Assembly (NCBI RefSeq): GCF_030704535.1
Contig: NC_081807.1
Location: 5,559,001-5,623,000, forward strand
Source of the DNA: Vitis vinifera
Lineage: Eukaryota; Streptophyta; Magnoliopsida; Vitales; Vitaceae
Reading direction: 5' to 3'
Length of the DNA: 64,000 nt
Part shown: positions 52,922 through 53,857 of the stretch, piece after piece
Position numbering within the stretch: position 1 is the first letter of the stretch
Layout: the number at the start of each line of letters is the position of its first letter
The notes under the pieces: generated by a model
Told to the model about the DNA's origin: nothing
Seen by the model: the letters and a program-made list of their open reading frames with translations, nothing else
Database searches by the model: none
Made by a program: the position numbers and the translations under genes

Positions 52922-53857
52922 TTTAAGTCCAAAATAATACTTTTGAAAAAAAAATAGTGAGAATAGTGTCCCACCCAAAATATTTATCAAAGTAGTCTTT
53001 TTTTTTTTACCACGTATTCATCCACTTGGATTTTTTCCTTTTATTTTTTTTAGTATAAAATACCATAATTGATGATTGTGGTTTTAAAAGTTTCATAAAT
53101 ATCCTTAAAATCATAATCATAAAGTTCTACAATTTTCTTTAAAACCATAATTACTAACTATAGTTTCAAAAATATTTTTAAACCATAACTCGTTTCAACT
53201 TTTAATAGTTAGTATTGTGAGTTTAAAATTATTTTTAAAATCTTTTTTATCATAACAACCATAAAACCATAGTTAATAACTGTGGTTTCAAAAATATTTT
53301 TAAACTAACAATGCAACTATGAAAAATTGTAACAAATGCAATTTAAAGGATATTTTTGAAACCACAATTACTAATTATGGTTCTAAAAAAGATTTTAAAA
53401 TTATAATACTAATTATTGAAAATTGTAACGGAGTGTACTTTAAAGATATTTGTGAAACTATAGTTAGTAACTATGATTCTAAAGAAAATTATAAAACCAC
53501 AATCAGTGACTGTGGTTTTCAAAATATTTTTAAAACCATAATTATTAATTGTGATTTTAAAAATAATTTTAAAATCATAATACTAACCATTGTAATGGGG
53601 TGTAATTTAAAAATATTTTTGAAACCACAGTTATTAACTGTGGTTCTAAAGAAAATTGTAAAATCACCATTTTTTATTATGGTTTTAAGGATATTTCTAA
53701 AACTTTTAAAACCATAATAATGTGGTTTTCTGCACAGAAAAAAAAAAAAAAAAGACATGGATAATTACGTGGATAAAAAAAACTATTTTGATAAATAATT
53801 TGAGAGGAGTACTATTCTCACTATTTTTTTCTTCAAAAGGATTGTTTTGGACTTAAA
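52922..53857. mobile_element. Foldback element with internal palindrome array
   Basis: A 936-bp region with long inverted ends: TTTAAGTCCAAAATAATAC at the left and its imperfect complement ending GGACTTAAA at the right. Complementarity runs for about 105 bp on each side (AATAGTGAGAATAGT, ATTTATCAAAGTAGT, CCACGTA blocks). The interior (53062-53729) holds about ten short palindromes of the type AACCACAGTTATTAACTGTG with AT-rich spacers. No transposase, and no clear target duplication beside the ends. It resembles non-autonomous foldback DNA transposons, but the internal array is unusual. Confidence 0.7.
53062..53729. repeat. Array of about ten imperfect palindromes
   Basis: Units of about 22-26 bp lie near 53062, 53142, 53179 (weak), 53264, 53359, 53455, 53494, 53532, 53621, 53660 (weak) and 53707. 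Each has an ACC(A/C)(C/T)A arm, a loop near TTA(C/T)TAA and the reverse-complement arm ending TGGTT. The spacers share TTTTTAAAAATATT and GAAACC words. Confidence 0.75.

Follow-up and report, generated by a model that had tools for sequence, protein, structure and literature searches.

Subterminal repeats and foldback ends are already known from Mutator-like elements (MULEs), and MULEs bearing a plant mobile domain (PMD) as well as MULEs of grapevine have been described. In the VANDAL MULEs of Arabidopsis, binding of dense motif arrays by VANC proteins is described to result in a loss of methylation (PMC5735166, PMC10398659). VANDAL21 and VANDAL6 possess a dense family-specific short motif in non-coding tandem repeats, and the arrays expand or contract and differ between copies. 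Muta1 of Aedes aegypti, named a 'type 2 Foldback' by its authors, is a MULE with target-site duplications (TSDs) of 8-9 bp and long composite terminal inverted repeats (TIRs); furthermore, it has subterminal tandem repeats and many derivatives of variable repeat number (PMC5225508). The Mutator/Foldback element Tm1 of root-knot nematodes also combines a 9-bp TSD and foldback TIRs with a variable number of short motifs and MITE-like derivatives (PMC3169594). FARE and MuTAnT, as cited in PMC4486113, are modular plant MULE foldbacks with long inverted ends. In grapevine, Mutavine is reported to comprise 18 families whose length reaches 17.7 kb, with 11 kb for Mutavine-2 and a 9-nt TSD where one was found (PMC2528002), and a PMD is present in most of the MUDRAVI2 group (PMC6446971).

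The element described here is located in a stretch of 64,000 nucleotides of the grapevine genome (the window, G000:C3:5559001-5623000), and searches covered its own genome (495.6 Mb, 21 contigs). In identity and origin it is very likely a degenerate non-autonomous MULE, both ends of which are of the array-bearing right type (Table 1). An earlier note, made from the letters of the window, had drawn a foldback at 52922..53857; the foldback stands, but homology to other copies places its limits at 52918-53860, 3-4 bases wider per side. The inverted ends of about 105 bp claimed there are borne out by arms that are 91 % (52922-52954/53825-53857) and 83 % (52941-53003/53775-53837) complementary and by TIRs that agree at 92 of 106 aligned sites, and the element matches its own minus strand over the span 1-936 at 70 %. 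As in foldback elements, long inverted ends are combined with internal repeats and end-to-end folding. As in MITEs, the sequence is short (943 bp), non-coding (the longest open reading frame (ORF), 132 aa, is located in the repeat) and has its ends in common with an autonomous element. The flanking 9-bp sequences GGTAATATG and AGTGATACG are identical at six positions, the three mismatches all being transitions; of 456 mismatched flank pairs, 8 reached an identity of at least 6/9. TTAA (piggyBac-like) termini, prompted by the start TTTAAGTCC, were dropped because other copies have a GAG terminus and 9-bp TSDs; the terminus consensus of these copies is GAGTTTAAG-N-CCAAAA or near it. Further copies are numerous, with at least 167 element matches in the genome.

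Table 1 Features of the element in the window (positions are those of the window)
Feature	Position	Strand	Remark
Very likely non-autonomous foldback MULE, two right-type ends face to face	52918..53860	.	943 bp
Decayed 9-bp TSD, left copy, GGTAATATG	52909..52917	.	set by GAG-terminus homology
Decayed 9-bp TSD, right copy, AGTGATACG	53861..53869	.	
Left TIR of about 106 bp, an end of the right (R) type	52918..53023	+	alignment to autonomous ends
Right TIR, about 106 bp, likewise R-type	53755..53860	-	alignment to autonomous ends
Palindrome unit 1	53061..53083	.	6 mismatches vs consensus
Palindrome unit 2	53143..53165	.	4 mismatches vs consensus
Palindrome unit 3	53265..53287	.	1 mismatch vs consensus
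Palindrome unit 4	53360..53382	.	3 mismatches vs consensus
Palindrome unit 5	53456..53478	.	4 mismatches vs consensus
Palindrome unit 6	53495..53517	.	3 mismatches vs consensus
Palindrome unit 7	53534..53556	.	4 mismatches vs consensus
Palindrome unit 8	53623..53645	.	0 mismatches, consensus exactly
Palindrome unit 9	53662..53684	.	7 mismatches vs consensus

The assignment to the Mutator-like elements is based on the TSDs of the family together with a MURA-like transposase. Both ends were located in 22 elements, a set that includes two alternative readings with a common right end, and 13 of them have TSDs of at least 8/9 (10 perfect), compared to 0 of 456 mismatched flank pairs; the window copy alone reaches 6/9. 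Among the nine elements below 8/9, three come to 8 after an end shift of one base (C2:8.59 and both readings of C18:5.27). The others stay below despite such a shift, namely C19:1.686 with 7, the window copy, C8:14.75 and L083 with 6, L084 with 3 and C14:16.70 with 2. A search for the MULE domain together with a palindrome search led to an autonomous locus at C7:25.9 Mb (L068), in which an 829-aa MURA-like ORF is followed by two ORFs with parts of the PMD (PF10536; 6e-53 and 1e-22), 11 palindromes and the terminus. The first ORF contains the Pfam domains MULE (PF10551, 4e-19), DBD_Tnp_Mut (PF03108, 2e-10), Transposase_mut (PF00872) and SWIM (PF04434), and a scan of the four unspliced ORFs of at least 150 aa, run with Pfam profiles alone, gave transposase domains and PMD only. 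At C14:3.93 Mb lies a second autonomous copy, which shares 96 % identity with L068 across 9.1 kb. The complete members have 11,203 bp (C14:3928547-3939749) and 11,928 bp (C7:25893859-25905786) and are flanked on both sides by the perfect TSDs GAAATTATT and AGAAAAGAA, respectively. Their left (L) and right (R) TIRs of about 105 bp are related yet distinct (82 of 100 aligned sites, or 71 % by BLAST).

Several further arrangements were observed among the family members. Several tandem copies of a unit of about 155 bp intervene between transposase and PMD ORFs (L069:4713-5795, L068:4070-5162). Two transposase-bearing copies with the same palindrome spacing lie tail to tail at C19:7924953-7944632 (L074 being the middle), their right ends about 30 bp apart. 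At C16:20439159 and 20439273 (L029) two R-type termini of the same direction are 114 bp apart, perhaps because one element inserted into the end of another or was duplicated there. The region C14:16644401-16711364 (L011, L017, L018, L019, L025) holds several copies with a near-identical left flank, of which four of the five segments have just 2-3 palindromes and the fifth has 9; these copies are perhaps segmental duplications of one old member.

The palindrome unit comprises 23 bp, that is two 11-bp arms around one central base. The earlier note had counted some ten of them; the internal array is confirmed, and the number is nine units of AACCACAGTTANTAACTGTGGTT at up to 7 mismatches, with start-to-start spacings of 82, 122, 95, 96, 39, 39, 89 and 39 bp. 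At up to 6 mismatches, 8 units are found in the window element, whereas the mean over 1000 composition-matched first-order Markov sequences was 0.014 and the maximum 2. The exact palindrome occurs 156 times in the genome and a reversed-pattern control 0 times. Of 50 listed occurrences, 46 lie, as judged by eye, in loci that searches with the element or its ends had matched, while the retrieved sequences of the other four contain 6-8 units each. On the basis of these 156 versus 0 matches and the 50 listed loci, the palindrome appears to be specific to this MULE family.

Within the autonomous members the array is a property of one end. In the two left-end stretches of the C14 and C7 copies no palindrome was found at up to 7 mismatches, and the transposase-linked R ends carry 6-15 units each in 14 of 14 cases examined. 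Among 28 transposase matches (at least 80 % identity, two second fragments left out), an R end follows within 15 kb downstream in 16 and an L end precedes within 10 kb upstream in 20, but in no case do the listed ends place an R end upstream over the latter distance; for 12 of the 28 there is no downstream R end among the ends listed. The transposase runs from L to R in all 14 L-R pairs that contain one. The gaps between units follow a pattern of 48, 39 and then mostly 42 and 39, and there are also blocks of about 111, 85 and about 156 bp. Since this rule is modular and the blocks occur in differing numbers from copy to copy, the array appears to change by tandem duplication and loss of head-to-tail modules. 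When sites are picked on one arm, the other arm is at consensus in 88 % for 14 autonomous ends (236 sites) and in 94 % for 10 young copies (135 sites), where the flanks reach 57-70 %; 28 other segments (200 sites) give 84 %, and the flanks of all three groups range over 54-73 %; therefore the palindrome is the common unit and the spacers differ.

Both TIRs of the window element resemble the right end of the autonomous members. Its left TIR matches two autonomous R ends at 86/106 and 88/106 and L ends at 75/97, its right TIR the R ends at 82/104 and 83/106 and L ends at 72/104 and 71/104, and each half of the element aligns to an autonomous R end at about 69 %. As the window copy has two right-type ends, its palindromes are an inherited right-end repeat array whose number changes via tandem modules. 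An origin of the array inside a MITE by the palindrome-driven expansion that had been proposed before does not agree with this, because the array matches the right-end array of MULEs of 11-12 kb.

The window copy is one of many such elements. Three R queries and one L query were used to list ends, the matches scored being the best 40 of 131, the best 40 of 182 and the best 40 of 58. In this way at least 103 R-type and at least 40 L-type ends were listed, and inward-facing neighbours were paired within 20 kb, leaving out a 45-bp partial end match at C18:5272573. Most pairs are positional and few were confirmed base by base. Among the listed ends there are at least 24 R-R pairs including the window copy, at least 22 L-R pairs (14 with and 8 without a transposase) and at least 4 L-L pairs (one with a transposase), and 33 R and 10 L ends are unpaired; R and L being unequally queried, the ratios of these pairs are no census. 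The R-R copies have 0.9-1.8 kb, which is large by MITE standards, and none contains a transposase.

Eight young R-R copies are 94.9-98.9 % alike over the best aligned stretch (four are cut by the end of the retrieved locus), and in 8/8 the interior match to L068 begins at 7800-7802, with 84-94 % identity to the autonomous copy. In older R-R copies the starts of this match are close to 7880 or to 7980-8006 and may represent other junctions or merely alignment ends; by alignment it is absent from the window copy, C2:6.075 and C14:16.70. The sequences suggest, without proving, that R-R foldbacks formed in more than one event, and their abundance may reflect one successful lineage. As a mechanism, the right end would have been duplicated in inverted orientation, perhaps via interrupted gap repair following excision. 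The transposase would then have mobilised the two-right-end product in trans, leaving 9-bp duplications, and a young branch of these foldbacks seems to have multiplied. Tandem modules come and go in the right-end array, and that of the window copy has decayed, chiefly by C>T/G>A change.

The element is predicted to fold strongly. As RNA, its minimum free energy is -333, compared to -144 in a set of 20 shuffles (z -24.5), and the interior as DNA reaches z -20.3. The RNA is predicted to pair end to end in one long stem that includes two inner arms, as to be expected from the two-right-end architecture. The foldback described in the earlier note is supported by folding, but its ladder of small hairpins is not: in the minimum-energy RNA fold 0 of 9 units pair with themselves, their partners lying elsewhere in the element (53360 for the unit at 53265 and 53623 for that at 53495, for instance), and four units form whole unit-to-unit pairs. 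It is rather unlikely that the foldback is a structured-RNA source of 21-24-nt small RNAs, comparable to miRNA loci derived from MITEs or to siRNA loci with inverted repeats. The very stable fold would suit such a role, but long inverted ends alone predict the same stability, the units do not make hairpins of their own, and no Rfam match above the gathering score was obtained in 52900-53880. The ladder reading further supposed that the arms vary together, CATA on one side calling for TATG on the other so that the hairpin is kept, and that the array grew by palindrome-driven expansion. From 365 units, of which 360 have a neighbour within 400 bp, 196 remained after removal of near-identical contexts; these contain 79 complementary double changes, more than in a global shuffle of the arms (57.4 ± 6.1, 0/2000 reaching 79) but within chance when right arms are shuffled within elements (71.5 ± 5.5, 208/2000 reaching 79). 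All 360 units give the same picture, with 88 doubles against 57.4 globally (0/2000) and 83.7 ± 6.5 within elements (539/2000), and the nine window units have 7 against 5.4 ± 1.4 (429/2000). Position T10, with 26 doubles versus 12.5 expected, stands out in the global comparison. We attribute the excess over the global shuffle to differences in age and subfamily between the copies. Among the substitutions away from consensus, C>T or G>A accounts for 24 of 32 in the nine units of the window element, for 360 of 743 in the older units, these nine included, and for 39 of 201 in the young and autonomous ones. The CATA/TATG pattern is accordingly explained by decay of both arms of CCACAG..CTGTGG, for which no pairing constraint is needed. 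Moreover, the array changes by head-to-tail modules and occurs in transposase-bearing elements. What stands from the earlier note is the foldback itself, its unusual array of internal palindromes and its many genomic copies; the hairpin ladder with compensatory arms is almost certainly wrong.

Regarding the function of the array, the reading favoured here, quite possible though short of probable, is that of a repeated candidate platform bound by a regulator of the host or of the element itself, by analogy to the tandem VANC targets. The dyad symmetry of the unit, two 11-bp arms, suggests a dimeric DNA-binding protein. A passive, functionless satellite-like tandem repeat, in which palindromes persist through duplication and conversion alone, is somewhat unlikely. 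Modules are freely gained and lost, and near the terminus of 14 autonomous ends no extra constraint was detected on the palindromes, which are as variable between autonomous copies as the spacers (pi 0.072 versus 0.066; A/T sites 0.021 versus 0.035, C/G sites 0.139 versus 0.173), so that recent constraint on the motif is unsupported. However, such a repeat would account less readily for a palindrome common to units with differing spacers, and for the 6-15 units in every autonomous R end examined. We regard it as unlikely that the array is a transposition enhancer, for which its subterminal location beside the TIR and its variable copy number speak, as do the precedents of Galileo (PMC3688188) and the subterminal tandem repeats of Muta1 (PMC5225508). 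Against this, both autonomous left ends lack an array, and the palindrome counts of three L-L elements with perfect TSDs are 0 at C4:24.63 Mb (761 bp), 1 at C15:3.54 Mb and 0 at C11:5.72 Mb, so that the array is dispensable in cis for transposition; enhancement without being required is possible. The likelihoods given to the four functional readings, from small-RNA source to binding platform, overlap. Most likely the array is neither a hairpin ladder nor an obligatory transposase site, and the array of the window copy is most likely inert now. Extending the binding-platform reading, the PMD protein (or the transposase) of PMD-bearing MULEs would bind the dimeric palindromes of the right end against host silencing, and R-R foldbacks would outcompete other derivatives via a double array dose; this is a decidedly speculative and unlikely proposal.

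The neighbourhood of the element had been described as a subtilase pseudogene directly preceding it. The sequence at about 52460-52700 indeed resembles, by eye only, a degraded second subtilase copy, its 60-aa ORF giving no Pfam match. However, the clear subtilase at 49234-51552 (+) is an uninterrupted ORF of 772 aa (PF00082, 5e-47; fn3_6, Inhibitor_I9, PA). Elsewhere in the window, positions 36001-38000 have a GC content of 21 % versus 47.5 % and 32.6 % in the adjacent 2-kb blocks, a 179-aa ORF at 54861-55400 (-) looks, by eye, as if derived from the C-terminal portion of a receptor-like protein kinase, and a tRNA-Arg (TCT) is located at 13506-13578 (+).

In comparison to the described systems, the VANC21 motif has 9 bp, runs in one direction and occupies several non-coding regions, whereas 23-bp palindromes at one end are found here; VANDAL elements carry VANC, and no VANC protein was recognised among the ORFs scanned in L068, two of which encode PMD parts. 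The repeats of Muta1 differ in being 12 bp long, inside the TIRs and separated by spacers of 3-4 bp, and a terminal 10-bp motif, not the repeat unit, is described there as palindromic (PMC5225508). Tm1 has a Phantom-class transposase and a motif of about 14 bp (PMC3169594), and FARE and MuTAnT are without a 23-bp palindrome array by their description in PMC4486113. The PMD of MUDRAVI2 is often antisense (PMC6446971), unlike the sense orientation observed here. The autonomous partner is probably a member of a Mutavine or MUDRAVI family or a close relative. The main text of the 2008 grapevine paper (PMC2528002) does not contain the terms 'subterminal' and 'palindrom'. A one-ended palindrome array and two-right-end foldbacks were not found in the accessible parts of the literature on palindromic or subterminal repeats of plant MULEs and on grapevine and foldback Mutator elements, which is not proof of absence, and the listed papers matching the exact motif strings appear unrelated, judged by title.

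A transposase-bearing MULE with a one-ended array and mobile R-R, L-R and L-L derivatives, all in one genome, amounts to a natural experiment on the role of the array. In addition, an anti-silencing function of MULE-captured PMD proteins has been speculated upon (PMC5418596), and for this the palindrome array may provide a concrete candidate target.
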